64,000 nucleotides of DNA from the NCBI GenBank assembly GCA_040880805.1, contig JBBDHW010000029.1, forward strand, positions 59,911 through 123,910, given 5' to 3'. The position numbers and the translations under genes were made by a program. This document shows, one piece after another, positions 13,335 through 64,000 of the stretch. The notes beneath the pieces were generated by a model that did not search any database, was not told the DNA's origin, and saw only the letters and a list, made by a program, of their open reading frames with translations. The number at the start of each line of letters is the position of its first letter. Positions within the stretch are counted from its first letter, which is position 1. Origin of the DNA: Acidimicrobiia bacterium. Its GTDB lineage: Bacteria > Actinomycetota > Acidimicrobiia > IMCC26256 > DASPTH01.

Positions 13335-13979
13335 ATGGAGGACCGACTGACTTCCGTTCTGTACCTCGAGATGACCGAAGCGGACCCCGACGCCTACGCG
13401 CGCGACCGCGTGAGCGAGGTGCTCGCGCTTCCGAGCGTGGAGCGGGCAACCTGGTGGCGCAACGTCTACCGCGACCGACCCGACCTCCCGCGCGAGTTGC
13501 CCGAGTTCGACACGCTCGGCGTCTACGAATGCGACCCGTCATTCGTCGCGCCGCCCACCGCCGACGGCATCATCGGCCACCACTTCGTGCGCACTCCCCG
13601 GCCGGGGCAGGGTCGCCTCACCGGGAAGCCCACGGTGTCGCTCTCCCTGGTGCTCATCAGCCCGTCGACCCCCGACGAGGCTCAGGCGCTGCGCGACTGG
13701 GGCGACTTCGTGCACCTCAACCACATCGTCGAGGCCGGCGTCCCCGGCTACACGATGATCACGCCCTACGAGAACGCGACCAAAGGTGACCCGCGCTACC
13801 TGCACTTCTACGAGTTCGACGACCCCGACGCCGAGGTCACGTTCAAGCGGATGCGGCCGATGGTCGAGGCCCGCATCGGCAAGTGGGGCACACCCGAGTG
13901 CGACGCGTGGGCCTTCCACCCCGCGCTCCGCATCATGTACGTCAACTCGTTCGCGCTCGTCGGCGAGAAGACCCGTTGA
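13335..13979 (+). CDS. Hypothetical protein, possible dimeric alpha-beta barrel
   Basis: The 214-residue protein starts MEDRLTSVLYLEMTEADPDA. The tandem arrangement of short beta strands (LTSVLYLEM, RATWWRNVY, LGVYEC; then SLSLVLISP, GYTMITPYE, RYLHFYEFD) suggests two ferredoxin-like or EthD-type halves, but the sequence family is not recognised. No signal or membrane segment. It is divergent from the lipoprotein gene and followed by a palindromic repeat at 13983-14027 that probably ends transcription. Confidence 0.65.
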   Translation: MEDRLTSVLYLEMTEADPDAYARDRVSEVLALPSVERATWWRNVYRDRPDLPRELPEFDTLGVYECDPSFVAPPTADGIIGHHFVRTPRPGQGRLTGKPTVSLSLVLISPSTPDEAQALRDWGDFVHLNHIVEAGVPGYTMITPYENATKGDPRYLHFYEFDDPDAEVTFKRMRPMVEARIGKWGTPECDAWAFHPALRIMYVNSFALVGEKTR

Positions 13980-56306: not shown

Positions 56307-57561
56307 ATGAAGAGGGGCGGGGTGTCAAGGGTTTCGTGGTGGTGGTCGCGCGGGGTACGGGTGGGTGGTGTCCGTCATCTCTCTATTGCCTGCTCGAAGG
56401 AGGATTTGGTTGGTGGGACGCTCCGGTAGCCCAACTCGGAAGAGGACCGTCAAGCGGTCAGGGAGTAGTCGGGGCCTGTCGGAGCGAAGGGTTCGCCGCG
56501 GGTGAGCATGTGCCAGATCGCGGTGGCGAGTTTGCGGGCGATCTCGACGCGGGCGATCTTGGCGCCACGCTGTTTGCCGCAGCGACGCTTGGTGCGTTCG
56601 TAGTGAGGCCGATAACAGGGATGTTGCGCGGCGTGCACCGCGGCTTCGATGAGCGCCCAGCGCAGATAGCGTGGGCCGTTCTTGGCCAGCGGTCCCCGCC
56701 AGTCGGACTCGCCGGACTGGTCGACTTTCGGGCACAGGCCGGTGTAGCCGGTGAGCTTCTTCGCCGACGCGAACCGGTTGATGTCACCGATCTCGGAGGC
56801 GATGGTGTAGCCGAGCACCCAGGCGATCCCGGGTGCGGTCACCAACAACTCGACATAGCGATGATCGGCACCCAGGCGACGAAGCTCGCGTTCACAGCCA
56901 ATGATCTCGGTGTCGAGCTCGTCGATGAGCCGCAACGCGCCCACCAGGTTGGAACGCCACGGTTCGGGGAACTCGAGTCGCTCGAGCTGGGCGCGGCCCG
57001 CGAGACCGAAGAGATCTGATGCGAGTTTCGGGTAGCCGAACGCGATCAGGATCGAGTGCACCCGGTTCTTGAGCGCGGTGCGGCGCTTCACCAGATGCAG
57101 CCGCCAGCGGGCCCGTTCCCGTTCGCCGCGCACCCCCGGGGTGGGCAGCCAGATCGCCGGGACCAGATCACGGCGCGACAGCTCGGCGAGCACCCACGCG
57201 TCGATCCGGTCGGTCTTGCACGCCAACGGCGCCAACCCTTTCACCTTCGCCGCGTCCGCGATATCGACATCCCAGCCGAGCTGCTCGAGATGATCGTGCA
57301 CGAAGCGAGCGCCGTTCATCGCCTCGATCACTCCGCGCACCGGTTCGCCGAACACCCCGACACGACGAACCAGACTCGACAGCCCATCACGATCCGGTGG
57401 CGTCCACGACTCCAACATCGTCTCGCCCGGCTCGTCCAACACGCGAACCTCGAGGCGCTTTCTGCTCAGATCCAATCCAGCGTGCAACATGGTCCAGGGC
57501 CTCCTTGGTGACTGGTTCCGATGAGAACCCACAAGCTCTCACCGGGGAGGCCCCTCTTCAT
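56307..57561 (-). mobile_element. IS110-family insertion element
   Basis: The transposase gene (56450-57490, minus strand) is flanked by a 12-bp inverted pair: ATGAAGAGGGGC at 56307-56318 and its complement at 57550-57561. This gives an element of about 1.26 kb. IS110 elements usually lack long terminal repeats, so these may be the subterminal repeats of the IS1111 branch or the true ends. No target duplication is visible. It lies at the edge of a decayed stretch. Confidence 0.6.
56450..57490 (-). CDS. IS110-family transposase
   Basis: The 346-residue protein starts at ATG 57490. The N-terminal DEDD nuclease domain shows Asp7 in GLDLSRK, Glu56 in VIEAMNG and Asp94/Asp97 in KTDRIDA. The C-terminal Transposase_20 domain reads LLVTAPGIAWVLGYTIASEI, GDINRFASAKKLTGYTGL and GPLAKNGPRYLRWALIEAA. 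The gene is intact, so the element may be active. In related IS621 a noncoding bridge RNA from the element's left end specifies the target; I cannot point to one here. Confidence 0.9.
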   Translation of the reverse strand: MLHAGLDLSRKRLEVRVLDEPGETMLESWTPPDRDGLSSLVRRVGVFGEPVRGVIEAMNGARFVHDHLEQLGWDVDIADAAKVKGLAPLACKTDRIDAWVLAELSRRDLVPAIWLPTPGVRGERERARWRLHLVKRRTALKNRVHSILIAFGYPKLASDLFGLAGRAQLERLEFPEPWRSNLVGALRLIDELDTEIIGCERELRRLGADHRYVELLVTAPGIAWVLGYTIASEIGDINRFASAKKLTGYTGLCPKVDQSGESDWRGPLAKNGPRYLRWALIEAAVHAAQHPCYRPHYERTKRRCGKQRGAKIARVEIARKLATAIWHMLTRGEPFAPTGPDYSLTA

Positions 57562-58406: not shown

Positions 58407-58496
58407 GCTCGCGACCCTAGGCCCGTCACGTAGGCGACGTTCGGTGCGCACGTTCTGCTCGGAGTCGCGTATCTGGAAAGTGTCGCGGATCGGCAG

Positions 58497-59191: not shown

Positions 59192-59251
59192 GCGCACATA
59201 TTGCTTCGATCGGGTGCTGCTCTGCGAGCGCCGATCGGCAGACATGAGCGC
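59192..59251. repeat. 60-bp imperfect hairpin in intergenic gap, related to 62529-62565
   Basis: The arms (59192-59213 and 59231-59251) pair with bulges around a 17-nt loop; a 37-bp core (59207-59243) matches 62529-62565 at 31 of 37 positions. It is 27-86 bp upstream of the start of the methyltransferase gene on the minus strand. A terminator, an attC-like site and a riboregulator are all possible. Confidence 0.7.
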
Positions 59252-59321: not shown

Positions 59322-60050
59322 TCAACCGAGATCGACAGCGCGACGGCCAGCGATGATGGCCCACCCGTGACGCTGCTCTTGCAGATCGCTGGCGCGTGAT
59401 CGGTTCCGGAACCGGGGAGCGTCCGGATGATCTGGATTCTCTTCGAGCCAGTCCTCGACCGACCGCCACCTCAGCGTGATGTAGGTATTCCAATCGTCCT
59501 CCGACGCAGTGATCACCGTCACTGGTGCCAGGCCAGTGATGACGAAGGCGTCCAAGAGTTGAGCCAACGAATACAGCGGCGCGTTCTCGTCATCGTTCGC
59601 GTCGGGTGGGACGGGGTCTTTGACATACAGGTCACCGAGCACGACGTGACCCTGGACATCTACGAGTTCTCGCAGAGTTCGCGCGGTCTCAATGAAACCG
59701 CCGAGCACGCCCGTGGCACCCAAGCAGAGTGCGACGTTGCACCGACGCGCACGACGGATGTACTCGGCACCGTCTTCGTGAACGAACGTCACGAGGTGAC
59801 CGACACCAGCGTCCTCCGCCCGCCGCTTACCCACGTCGAGAAACGGCTCATGAGAGTCGACGGCGACGACGCGGCACCCGTATTCACGAGCGAGTAGAAC
59901 CGCTGGTCCACCGGTCCCGCATCCGAGGTCAAGAACTGTCTTACCGGAATCAAGTTGAAGGCGCTCGCCGAGGACTCGGATCTTCTCCGGATTCGATGGA
60001 TTCATCACCTCGTGATGACGGAAGCCGATCTCCCAGGTTCGTAGCGCCAC
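59322..60050 (-). CDS. Class I SAM-dependent methyltransferase
   Basis: This 242-residue protein has motif I LDLGCGTGGPAVLL starting at residue 40, then RVVAVDSHEPFLDVGKRRA and GHVVLGDLYVKDPVPP. The start is GTG 60050 (MALRTWEIGFRH). It differs in sequence from the neighbour at 58497, so they are not recent duplicates. The upstream gap holds the 74-bp repeat copy (60061-60134) ending 10 bp before the start codon. Substrate unknown. Confidence 0.83.
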   Translation of the reverse strand: MALRTWEIGFRHHEVMNPSNPEKIRVLGERLQLDSGKTVLDLGCGTGGPAVLLAREYGCRVVAVDSHEPFLDVGKRRAEDAGVGHLVTFVHEDGAEYIRRARRCNVALCLGATGVLGGFIETARTLRELVDVQGHVVLGDLYVKDPVPPDANDDENAPLYSLAQLLDAFVITGLAPVTVITASEDDWNTYITLRWRSVEDWLEENPDHPDAPRFRNRSRASDLQEQRHGWAIIAGRRAVDLG

Positions 60051-60060
60051 GCGCCCAGAT

Positions 60061-60134
60061 TGCCCGGTCCGCGCTCATGTCGCCAGTAAGTTCGCCGCGA
60101 CAGAACAACACCCGCTCCTAGCGGCAGTTCTGCG
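60061..60134. repeat. Palindromic intergenic repeat, copy 1 (74 bp)
   Basis: Fills the gap between the PD-(D/E)XK-like gene stop (60144) and the methyltransferase start (60050). It aligns over its full length with 60779-60850: 13 identical bases at the left, CAGAACA in the middle, and GCGGCAGTTC plus GCG at the right. The two ends can pair imperfectly. Confidence 0.85.
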
Positions 60135-60143
60135 CCGAGAGGC

Positions 60144-60764
60144 TCATTCGGATATCACGACCCACTCCGGCCATGCGTCGCTCCCTTGTGAAGCCTCCCA
60201 TGCGGGCAACTTGCCGGTCCAAGGATGGTCCGCTCTCAGGCCGACACGATCGCTGAGAGCCCACTCTCTGAACCGCGGAGGCAACATGACGGGCACTGCC
60301 GAAGCTGGCCGGTTCAGCAAGTCCCACCGCTGTTCGTAGCGCGCGAAGACCCAGTCGGCGAGCCGCGCACCCTTGATACCCGTATTCCTCTTGCCAACCG
60401 GAACGGTTGGGTTGGTCTGCCATTCCGTGTGGCCGATCCATGTCGCCGCCGCCACGTGATCTCTTGGGACGACGAAGGCCCTCGGCGCGTCCCACGCTTC
60501 TTTCGCGAGCCCGACAAGCACATACCACTCACGGTCTGACCTTGCCGGGTCGCAGCCTTTCTCGCCGAGCATGAACGTCAAGCGAGTACCGAAGCTAGCG
60601 GCCTTCACCTGCACTTCGATCATCTGGCCGGTCGCGGAATGCGCACCGAGGATGTCGGTTCGCGCTACCCCGTCACGGGTCAGCGCGACGGCCCAACCAA
60701 GTCGCGACAGGACGCCGCAGACCCAGTGCTCGCCCGCCGACTTCACCAACTTTGTATCGGCCAT
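60144..60764 (-). CDS. PD-(D/E)XK nuclease-like protein
   Basis: From ATG 60764 the 206-residue protein starts MADTKLVKSAGEHWVCGVLS. Residues Glu12, Asp37 (RTDILGAH) and Glu50/Gln52-x-Lys54 (IEVQVKAA) form a restriction-endonuclease-like active site of the Holliday-resolvase/DUF4365 kind, with Gln in place of the usual second acidic residue of the (D/E)xK. The rest (REWYVLVGLAKEAWDAPRAF, VVPRDHVAAATWIGHTEWQ) resembles the DNA-nicking relatives with unknown targets. No methyltransferase DNA-specific partner is beside it. ATG 60776 is an alternative start. Confidence 0.65.
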   Translation of the reverse strand: MADTKLVKSAGEHWVCGVLSRLGWAVALTRDGVARTDILGAHSATGQMIEVQVKAASFGTRLTFMLGEKGCDPARSDREWYVLVGLAKEAWDAPRAFVVPRDHVAAATWIGHTEWQTNPTVPVGKRNTGIKGARLADWVFARYEQRWDLLNRPASAVPVMLPPRFREWALSDRVGLRADHPWTGKLPAWEASQGSDAWPEWVVISE

Positions 60765-60778
60765 GGAGCCACGCATAA

Positions 60779-60850
60779 TGCCCGGTCCGCGTCAGTGTTG
60801 CCAGCCACTTCACCGCGCCAGAACATCGCGCACCGAGCGGCAGTTCGGCG
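60779..60850. repeat. Palindromic intergenic repeat, copy 2 (72 bp)
   Basis: The partner of 60061-60134. It ends 15 bp before the ATG (60764) of the PD-(D/E)XK-like gene. It shares the sequence CATAATGCCC next to its left end with the region just upstream of the thioesterase start (63051), which marks a common edge. Confidence 0.85.
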
Positions 60851-61047
60851 TGGCGAACCCCGCGACCTTGTGGCCTTCAGTACCCGCTGAGGGCATTGAA
60901 TGCCACAAGAGTGAACGCGACGGTTCTTGACACAAACAGGCTTCGATATGGAGCGCGGCTGTAGCAAACGCGGGCAACGCCCCGCGATCACAGGGGTGAT
61001 CGCTGTCTTCCGGCGGGACGCTGGGCTGAGTGCCGACATGCTGCGCG
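60851..61047. other. Intergenic stretch with a possible attC-like palindrome
   Basis: About 200 bp with no gene. On the minus strand, the TAA stop of the secreted-protein gene lies in AGCTAACGCG; about 90 bp on, CGCGTTTGCT pairs with it (9 of 10). This is the shape expected of an integron attC R''/R' pair, but no more than that. Otherwise I see nothing in it. Confidence 0.35.
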
Positions 61048-62370
61048 TTAGCTGAACTCTACCTTTAGCACTTGTATCGGCAAGCCACCGATCAGTGTGC
61101 GGACCGTCATCGTGACCGTCGCGCCGCCTTGGCCATTCCAGTTGCAATAGAGCGAGTCCGACGCCGGGTCGCACATCCCAAACTGCCATTGCGTCGCCGG
61201 GTTGTACGCCTGCGCGAAGAGTTGGTTCACCGCGTCGGCGCTCGCCACGTTGGCGGCGGCGGTGCGGTTGCCGTTCTGCCACGTGACGAAGAGGTATTGC
61301 GCGTAGCTCTGCGGATCGTCGGTGACAGGCGGCAGCGGCAGCGTGGTCGCCGGGGCCGTACTTGGTGGTTGCGTCGACACCGCAGGGGAGGAGCCCGGCA
61401 CGGGAAGTCGCAGCATCACAGGAGAGTTGGAGTCATAAGCAAGCACGAGACCAATCGGTTTGACCGTGGTGGGCACGTCGAAGATGACCCATGCCGTCGC
61501 GTCGAACCCTGCACCGAGGTCGTCATTGGCAGACGAGGCGCCTGTGACGTTCTCGACGATGGAGTCGACGTAAAAGTCGCGTGACGGCGTCCACGTTGCC
61601 TTGCCGTCTGTGATCGAGGCGAGTCCACCGAGGGCTTCTTCCGGAGAAAGCGAGCCGTTGGTCGCGTTCTGGATCCTGTAGCTGACTCCGACGAAGTGGC
61701 CTTTGGCGGTCGCGGCGCGCCCGCCGTACCCGTACTTGTCTGGCGCCTGGGTCAGGCTGGGCCCGAAGTCGCGAACATCGACCAGTGTCACGGTGTAACT
61801 CCCCGTAAACCCGTCTCCGACATCGAGCCTCTCGCCGAGCGCAGCGTCGACCACGATCTCAGTCGGCGCCTTGCTGAAGTCAACACTCGCTAGGTACTCG
61901 GCACGAGCTTGCGCGTCGGCGCTCGAACTGTCGAATGATCCGCAGTCCGTGCTCCGCCATTGACCGTCTTCGTAAACCCAGATGTTCCAATCGGGATCGT
62001 TGTCAAGCCGGCTGGTTGCGCCGTTCTTGTCGACCGCGAACACGCGTGCCTGTCCTCGCTTTCTCGACACAGCGCGTGTTTCCACTCGCCCTGCTCGAAA
62101 GTCTTTCAGCTTGACCTTGCTCAAGCCCTCGGCGAAAGCGGTGCCAAACACCAGGGTGGCCGCGAACTTGGCCTCCGATGTTGTCTTCCTACATTTTGCC
62201 GACAGGTAGCCATACGCAGTAGATGCATCTCCCTCGAGAGCCGCGTTCAGCGCAGCGCGCGCGGCCGAACGAAGCGAAGCGACGCTCGGGGTTCGCGCCG
62301 CGTGCGCAGTCGTTCCCAGCAGGGACACTGTCAACGCGACTGTGCTCAAACCGACAAGACCGCGTCGCAT
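61048..62370 (-). CDS. Secreted protein with DUF4352-like domain
   Basis: ATG 62370 follows GGAGGG and starts a 440-residue exported protein. The signal is clear (GLVGLSTVALTVSLLGTTAHA, cleavage after about residue 24). A Cys-containing N-terminal domain follows, then a DUF4352-like beta-sandwich region (about 176-300: TVTLVDVRDFGPSL, GHFVGVSYRIQNATNGSLSP, FDATAWVIFDVPTT). A Pro/Thr linker (STQPPSTAPATTLPLPP) leads to a C-terminal domain with DDPQSYAQYLFVTWQNGNRT and MCDPASDSLYCNW. The C-terminal WQNGNR-type domain recurs in actinobacterial secreted proteins. Role unknown. Confidence 0.72.
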   Translation of the reverse strand: MRRGLVGLSTVALTVSLLGTTAHAARTPSVASLRSAARAALNAALEGDASTAYGYLSAKCRKTTSEAKFAATLVFGTAFAEGLSKVKLKDFRAGRVETRAVSRKRGQARVFAVDKNGATSRLDNDPDWNIWVYEDGQWRSTDCGSFDSSSADAQARAEYLASVDFSKAPTEIVVDAALGERLDVGDGFTGSYTVTLVDVRDFGPSLTQAPDKYGYGGRAATAKGHFVGVSYRIQNATNGSLSPEEALGGLASITDGKATWTPSRDFYVDSIVENVTGASSANDDLGAGFDATAWVIFDVPTTVKPIGLVLAYDSNSPVMLRLPVPGSSPAVSTQPPSTAPATTLPLPPVTDDPQSYAQYLFVTWQNGNRTAAANVASADAVNQLFAQAYNPATQWQFGMCDPASDSLYCNWNGQGGATVTMTVRTLIGGLPIQVLKVEFS

Positions 62371-62528
62371 GCCGCCCTCCATCTCCGCCTTGCGGAGCTG
62401 AAAACGCTACCGCACACGAGGCCCTGGTTTGTTCGCGGCCGGTAGTGGCAGGCAAGGCGCGGACTCCTGCGTGCCGCGCGCGCCAGATTGACCCGACCCA
62501 AGAACTCACAACACGAATACTCGTTTCC

Positions 62529-62565
62529 CGATCGGGAGCGCCTTAGCGAGCGCCGAACGGCAGAC
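62529..62565. repeat. 37-bp repeat, partner of 59207-59243
   Basis: 31 of 37 positions match the hairpin core at 59207-59243. It sits 10-46 bp downstream (in the gene direction) of the thioesterase stop at 62575, again with a CGGCAG end nearest the stop. Confidence 0.75.
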
Positions 62566-62574
62566 CGGGGGCGG

Positions 62575-63051
62575 TCAGGTCAGTCCACGATCTTGAAGGT
62601 TGCGCATCTCAACGGCGATCGTGATCGCCGTTGCCTTCACGAGTTCGGTCCTTGTCACCGATGACGTGAGCGTCGCGTCCACGAAGACCTTCCGGCGCTC
62701 GCGCCCTCCGAGTGTCGCCCGACCGATCAGCCTCTCGCCGGTAGGTACGGGTGCTTGAAAGCGTGTCGTCACGGTCCCGGTGAACGCCATGATTCCGAAG
62801 AACAGCGGAAGTTGGCCGCACATCTCGCTCATGATTCCAGCGGTCCATGAGGTGTGCGCGAGGTTCGGTGTCTCGCGGTAGTCGTGAGGGCACTCGATGT
62901 CGAAGGAGACCGAGTTTTCGTCCTCCAGCTGCGCAGCGAGTATTCCCATTCGGCACGCGTTGCGCACGCCACACGGCTCCATGCAAAGAAACACTCCGGT
63001 CGGACTGCGTTGAACGCGAGACGCGTCCGGGGCGGCCTCGTCCGGAGTCAC
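62575..63051 (-). CDS. PaaI-family thioesterase (hotdog fold)
   Basis: The 158-residue protein (GTG 63051) has the PaaI/4HBT pattern: LAHTSWTAGIMSEMCGQLPL, then FTGTVTTRFQAPVPTGERL and RRKVFVDATLTSS. The His-rich loop of the fold is HTSWTAG. It hydrolyses an acyl-CoA thioester; the acyl group is unknown. Nearest cassette-like gene to the recombinase, separated by 125 bp. The upstream edge contains CATTATGCG, also found at the edge of the PD-(D/E)XK gene. Confidence 0.78.
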   Translation of the reverse strand: MTPDEAAPDASRVQRSPTGVFLCMEPCGVRNACRMGILAAQLEDENSVSFDIECPHDYRETPNLAHTSWTAGIMSEMCGQLPLFFGIMAFTGTVTTRFQAPVPTGERLIGRATLGGRERRKVFVDATLTSSVTRTELVKATAITIAVEMRNLQDRGLT

Positions 63052-63176
63052 GCACGCATAATGCCCGCTCGGGAGCGGTTCTGCTGGTCGTGTCGTACGG
63101 TCGTCGTTCCTGAAGTGGCCGGTGCCCCTCGACCGATCGCGGCTACGGAGCTCCGGCTTGAGCTTGGAGGCTTCTC

Positions 63177-64000
63177 ATGCACGATCCCAGTTTGTCGACT
63201 GCCCTCGTCCCGGTTCGTCAAGCGCTCTTCTCACCGGAGGAGGAGTTCGCGTTGGCGGGGTTTCTTGCCGGCTACAGCGGCCTCACTCATGAGGCGTACG
63301 CGTTGGATCTCCGTCAGTACGTCACCTGGTGCACCGAACACCGCGTGGCGCTTTTCGGTGCGCGCCGCGCGGACATCGAGACGTTCGGCCGTCACCTCGA
63401 GTCGCTCGGCCGGGCTCGCGCCGCGATCGCACGGCGGTTGTGCACGATCGCCGCGTTCTACCGTTACGCCGAAGAAGAAGCCCTGATCCCGGTCTCACCC
63501 GCGGTGCATGTCCGCCGGCCGCGTCTCGACTACGAGTCCAACGCGACCGGCTTGGATCGCAACGAGGTCGGTGCCCTTCTCGTCGCGGCTGGCCTCGCGA
63601 GCGCCCGCGACCACGCGTTGATCAGCCTGCTCGCGCTCAATGGACTGCGGGTCTCGGAAGCTACCTGGGCCGATATCGAAGCGCTCGGTCTCGAGCGCGG
63701 GCACCGGACCCTCACGATTCACCGCAAAGGCCACAAGGTCGTGACGATGCCCCTCGCACCACGGACCGCGCGAGCGATCGACCTCGCAGTTGGGGAACGC
63801 TGCGAAGGCCCGATCTTCCGAGCGAGTAACGGTGACCGGTTGGATCGTCACGCGGCTGGGCGGATCGTGCGTCGCCTCGCCCGCCAAGCCGGGATCACCA
63901 AGCGCGTGGGACCGCACACGCTGCGCCACGCGTTCATCACCGCCGCGCTCGACGCCGGCGTTCCGCTACGCGACGTCCAAGAAGCCGCCAGCCACGCCGA
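63177..64000 (+). CDS. Tyrosine recombinase/integrase, 3' end outside window
   Basis: The first 274 residues of a tyrosine recombinase start at ATG 63177 after GGAGG with 6-bp spacing. The N-terminal SAM-like core-binding domain (FLAGYSGLTHEAYALDLRQY) is followed by the catalytic domain. Catalytic residues are Arg158 in LNGLRVSE, Lys184 in HRKGHK, His247-x-x-Arg250 in HTLRHAF, and the second His273 in AASHA; the Tyr nucleophile lies past the window end. The IntI-specific insertion near patch III is not seen, so it looks XerC/D- or transposon-type. It is divergent from the accessory gene array. Confidence 0.88.
   Translation, partial: MHDPSLSTALVPVRQALFSPEEEFALAGFLAGYSGLTHEAYALDLRQYVTWCTEHRVALFGARRADIETFGRHLESLGRARAAIARRLCTIAAFYRYAEEEALIPVSPAVHVRRPRLDYESNATGLDRNEVGALLVAAGLASARDHALISLLALNGLRVSEATWADIEALGLERGHRTLTIHRKGHKVVTMPLAPRTARAIDLAVGERCEGPIFRASNGDRLDRHAAGRIVRRLARQAGITKRVGPHTLRHAFITAALDAGVPLRDVQEAASHA

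Follow-up and report, generated by a model that had tools for sequence, protein, structure and literature searches.

Two segments at consecutive gene boundaries are copies of one element, hereafter repeat A, which is probably a small, non-coding and lineage-restricted dispersed repeat of ~80–90 bp, present in nine copies in its host, resembling MIRU and REP elements and equipped with a weak terminator. The stretch of DNA analyzed here (the window, 64,000 nucleotides) spans positions 59911–123910 of the 124,176-base contig C29, within a genome of 3.49 Mb (69 contigs, 95% completeness), and the closest genomes compared with this host share its order only. In a search of the whole genome, the cores of the two segments aligned with 80% identity over 75 columns (E 4.9e-10), which bears out the end-to-end similarity reported in an earlier note on this DNA; the 13 identical bases described at one end (TGCCCGGTCCGCG) and the GCGGCAGTTC-N-GCG described at the other are likewise exact. 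With profile R2, the homology proves wider than had been stated, extending to about the outer limits given in table 1.

Copy number and placement of repeat A

A profile search of the genome, as the earlier note had proposed, returned nine copies at six loci with scores of 36–79 bits, the next match in the same genome reaching 17 bits (the profiles were built on six copies for R1 and then on nine for R2). Repeat A is absent from the relatives searched: in 149 related genomes, R2 detected nothing of comparable score, and the weak matches obtained there (the best outside the host being at 25 bits, E 5e-5 per genome) are read as background, given the number of genomes searched. A degenerate pattern had no match in IMG/VR, and blastn had none in phages and plasmids. 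Pattern matches in Thauera, Methylobacterium, and Maricaulis, considered as a sign of wide spread, cover only ~30 bases inside long reading frames and were set aside as chance, and a pattern match on contig C37 was discarded as an A copy, for it merely repeats CAGAAC. The gap in question (L062:7930–8070) contains several CAGAAC motifs within ~140 bp, one of them embedded in GCGCAGAACTGCCGC, just as it is where A ends. Within the window, GGGCATTATGCGTG at 63053–63068 repeats the left end of copy b just upstream of the gene at 62575–63051, beside a recombinase gene, and the gap after the methyltransferase gene displays a weak inverted similarity to A at 58452–58496 (alignment z ~7 against shuffles).

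Table 1. Repeats, hairpins and flanking genes in the window (window coordinates), and positions of the remaining copies of repeat A (contig:position)
Feature	Position	Strand	Remarks
Repeat A, copy a (contig C29)	60051..60140 (core 60056–60134)	−	strand equals the upstream gene's direction, in which hairpin and T tail read
Repeat A, copy b (contig C29)	60769..60855 (core 60774–60850)	−	
Terminator-like stem-loop of copy a	60112..60124	−	CCGC-TAGGA-GCGG, then GTGTTGTTCTGT
Repeat B hairpin, two-way, terminator-like	60867..60909		R3 match 60858–60945
Methyltransferase-like gene	59322..60050	−	start adjoining copy a
Gene between both A copies, hypothetical protein	60144..60764	−	ORF open from 60776; likely start ATG 60764
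Gene of unknown function upstream of copy b	61048..62382	−	stop 198 nt before copy b, repeat B in between
Repeat A	C16:15079		
Repeat A, two copies	C10:7674 and C10:7153		
Repeat A	C27:22672		
Repeat A	C22:79647		
Repeat A	C38:12352		
Repeat A, left-half copy	C38:12574		

With regard to genomic context, eight of the nine copies are clearly intergenic, compared with 6.6% of random 79-mers, a background derived from a rough gene finder under which ~91% of this DNA is coding. The orientation of A is constant relative to the preceding gene, and the element usually lies directly after the stop codon: read in the direction of the upstream gene, which is opposite to the orientation in which A was first written, the stop codon is overlapped by C10b and precedes A by 9 nt in copy a and in C38b, by 35 nt in C22, by 109 nt in C16, and by 198 nt in copy b, where B intervenes. 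Copy a, which had been described as filling the entire space between two unrelated genes, occupies nearly all of it: the gene at 60144 has its stop codon 9 nt away, and the GTG start at 60050 lies at a distance of ~5 nt. Both copies do sit in gaps at gene boundaries, as had been claimed, but copy b occupies only part of its 270-nt gap, lying at the end of it and sharing it with the hairpin of repeat B. The C27 copy has no clear gene on its upstream-gene side, and C10a falls inside an open frame, possibly one joining two genes. This single frame (contig C10, L060:7228–8064) runs through the A copy and links SnoaL-like and GNAT domains, as either a fusion gene or a chance frame.

The neighbors of A comprise methyltransferase-like genes and an unclassified gene on C29, GNAT and SnoaL-like genes on C10, copper amine oxidase and glyoxalase-like genes on C16, TetR and CoA-transferase genes on C22, an alpha/beta hydrolase gene on C27, and an HTH antitoxin-like gene on C38. 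The idea that the copies are confined to same-strand gene pairs is contradicted by the C22 copy, which is found between convergent genes, so that A is not restricted to such pairs. On contig C38, a 62-bp direct repeat with 92% identity (L107:9787–9847 and 13697–13758) has one copy overlapping a tRNA-Arg gene (13716–13789); both A copies of this contig lie just outside the pair and a frame resembling an integrase N-terminus lies inside, an arrangement that looks like the ends of a tRNA-integrated element.

From its full-length similarity, the element had been proposed to be a repeated functional site. It is a true repeat and more than a chance hairpin, with strong placement at gene boundaries, but its six loci, its unrelated neighbors and its terminator-like stem-loop correspond largely to the outcome that the earlier note had named as contrary to its proposal, namely an element scattered in unrelated contexts as a simple terminator or REP family. 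As a result of this scatter and of the conserved terminator-like stem-loop, a small dispersed repeat or terminator family fits better than a dedicated functional site.

Folding of repeat A and the companion repeat B

The description of the two segments as palindromic did not survive folding, which is no better than in dinucleotide shuffles for DNA and RNA: DNA folding of the two copies on both strands gave z-scores between −0.97 and +0.35, and for RNA the z-scores of eight copies averaged −0.17 on one strand and +0.16 on the other. The ends of A lack covariation, and the ends of a given copy pair no more strongly with each other than with the ends of other copies (permutation p 0.4–0.9). A palindrome or hairpin element was ruled out by this combination of folding on both strands against shuffles and end-pairing permutation.

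What most copies retain is just a small internal stem-loop of 4–6 bp, GC in composition (CCGC-N5-GCGG or variants), followed by the T-rich stretch TGATGTTCTGT. In C10b the stem persists with a T-A replacement, and in C27 it accommodates an insertion; the counterpart of the copy a stem is weak in copy b. Seven of the eight full copies bear a hairpin with a T-rich tail on the strand that reads with the upstream gene, and one of the eight bears it on the other strand (background, 17% of random 96-mers per strand), a count that is weak and non-independent evidence for termination because the copies are homologous. Covariation in the stem is not significant, the observed value being reached by 125 of 500 shuffles, and the counts are compatible with a helix. 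From this hairpin and tail, we infer that the core of A may act as a weak intrinsic terminator or a 3′-end signal; the short stem and the imperfect T tract speak against it. No known RNA family reached its gathering score in the window, and only weak, unrelated family matches were obtained around copies a and b. A tRNA-linked site was set aside, the window having no tRNA.

The companion repeat B consists of a hairpin whose stem reaches 17 pairs and which is bordered on either side by T/A tracts (GTTCTTTTGGCCTTCA...TTGANGGCCAAAAG); it is found in the flanks of C29b, C27, and C38 and also on C9 and C34. Its covariance model recovered all five in the host, plus one weak match (E 3.6e-4) in one of 38 relatives. 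Three of the five B copies lie within ~100 bp of an A, and on C27, C38, and C34, B is followed by sequence resembling the start of A; as B adjoins A at three loci and is followed by such sequence, the two repeats tend to occur as composites.

Less likely readings: cassettes, insulators and coding fragments

Since two loci look like (gene-A)-(gene-A), it is tempting to regard A as an attC-like site of an unusual integron-like system, in which a gene and its A would constitute a cassette joined at the core GTTCGCCGCGACAG, possibly by the tyrosine recombinase encoded at 63177–64097. We consider this unlikely, even if several observations go in its direction. An array of the form gene-A-gene-A(-B) is present at 60 kb and a SnoaL-like-A-GNAT-A arrangement on C10, with one small gene per interval; A touches or overlaps stop codons; and the divergent tyrosine recombinase lies at the contig end, facing away from the array. 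The left and right halves of A are, moreover, uncorrelated in their similarity (Mantel r 0.06, p 0.29), and the half-copies, C22 with the right half and C38a with the left, both keep the core in the middle, although they may equally be truncations, given so few copies. The gene between the A copies is also sporadic, having a relative in 1 other of the 395 genomes of the class (G121, 67% identity) and another in a Frondihabitans sucicola plasmid record (53%). This sole relative in the class, however, belongs to an integrase island close to a tRNA-like sequence, and no A-like flanks surround it in G121. There (L207:5392–8125) it lies between an integrase/excisionase pair and the tRNA-like sequence (the tRNA being recognized by eye), and is probably carried by an integrative element.

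The outer box of attC sites reads GTTRRRY/RYYYAAC. The attC reading fails because A has no conserved end box of this kind (the GTT is not kept, the ends differing by eye among eight copies), because it has no stable fold (folding no better than chance and ends without covariation, unlike attC), and because integron integrase (TIGR02249) is above its cut-off in 0 of 61 genomes, namely the host, whose assembly is 95% complete, and 60 relatives. As for the recombinase at 63177–64097, it scores 127 bits as XerD and 67 as IntI, neither of which reaches the cut-off. The surroundings of the other A loci lack any recombinase catalytic domain, the only related feature being the integrase N-terminal-like frame ~4 kb from the C38 copies. 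One could still imagine that A forms the joints of a non-canonical actinobacterial gene-cassette system, made of an 80–90-bp direct repeat whose copies share a crossover core and served by an XerD-like tyrosine recombinase independently of integron-type folding, but this is very improbable. If a cassette reading were true, it would mean a gene-capture system in a phylum, the Actinobacteria, in which IntegronFinder 2.0 did not find complete integrons (PMC9024848), and the present evidence does not favor it.

The gene of this XerD-like tyrosine recombinase closes a run of minus-strand genes at 56450–64097 that opens with an IS110-family transposase gene (56450–57532). Its GC content is 0.615–0.665 versus 0.677 for the window, several of its genes have low codon scores, and it looks like a genomic island. 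Two other gaps of this run share a second repeat pair (59207–59243 and 62529–62565, 84% over 37 nt), of which the genome contains no third convincing copy.

It is also doubtful that A is a selected gene-boundary insulator, which would combine a terminator hairpin on the upstream side with a promoter on the downstream side, the latter consisting of CATTAT, CATTCT, or CAATCT ~10 nt before start codons in leaderless style. A start codon does lie ~4–12 nt from the left end of A at three junctions, and C22, between convergent genes, lost the left half and retained the hairpin half, as such an insulator might; but a scan of A for sigma-70-like promoters was negative, the hexamers match the consensus weakly, and C27 retains its left half although no clear gene start adjoins it. 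As for the A copies being a decayed protein-coding fragment, an idea inspired by the ORF through C10a and by one frame that is similar in several copies (LFCRGELTG.. / MFWRGEVAG..), third-position changes are not in excess, and it is in that very frame that synonymous differences are fewest (28/173 versus 44/204 and 48/156), which leaves this origin hardly credible.

Relation to known repeats and significance

MIRU elements lie between same-direction genes and overlap stop or start codons. They are repeats of 40–100 bp found at tens of places on an actinomycete chromosome (PMC2734929). Compared by size, number, and placement, A is similarly a short repeat dispersed in the intergenic gaps of an actinobacterium, but it has nine copies only, forms no head-to-tail arrays, belongs to another actinobacterial lineage, and has one copy between convergent genes. 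With REP, BIME, and REPIN elements, it shares the character of short dispersed extragenic repeats of which several kinds, here A with B, are combined at one place; it differs from them in having no stable palindrome, whereas B does have a strong hairpin. As in integron attC/CALIN arrays, direct repeats occur at gene ends, with one small gene between them and with stop-codon overlap. Yet attC sites vary in sequence while their structure is conserved (PMC9024848), whereas A keeps its sequence rather than a structure, without fold, outer-box GTT, or IntI above cut-off. Finally, B resembles an intrinsic two-way terminator by its strong hairpin with T/A tracts, and A resembles an intrinsic terminator by its short hairpin with a T-rich tail in the gene direction, but A is conserved over 80–90 bp, far beyond what a terminator needs.

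On the preferred reading of A as a dispersed repeat with a weak terminator, the element would have come to occupy intergenic gaps by spreading or by being copied, in most cases immediately 3′ of a gene and with a single orientation, and might persist there since gaps behind stop codons would tolerate insertion. Its CCGC-N5-GCGG stem-loop and T-rich tail could then weakly terminate the upstream gene, an effect that the strong B hairpin may sometimes reinforce. Against this reading, termination does not account for the left half of A, which adjoins the start of the next gene at three junctions, and neither terminal repeats, target duplications nor a transposase could be tied to A, for which no autonomous partner was recognized. 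Most likely, A is a modest find and not a new recombination system. It nonetheless documents a lineage-restricted intergenic repeat and its terminator-like companion B in an actinobacterial lineage that has no close relatives among the genomes compared, and, from an annotation perspective, it indicates that gaps filled by A are to be treated as neither genes nor attC sites.
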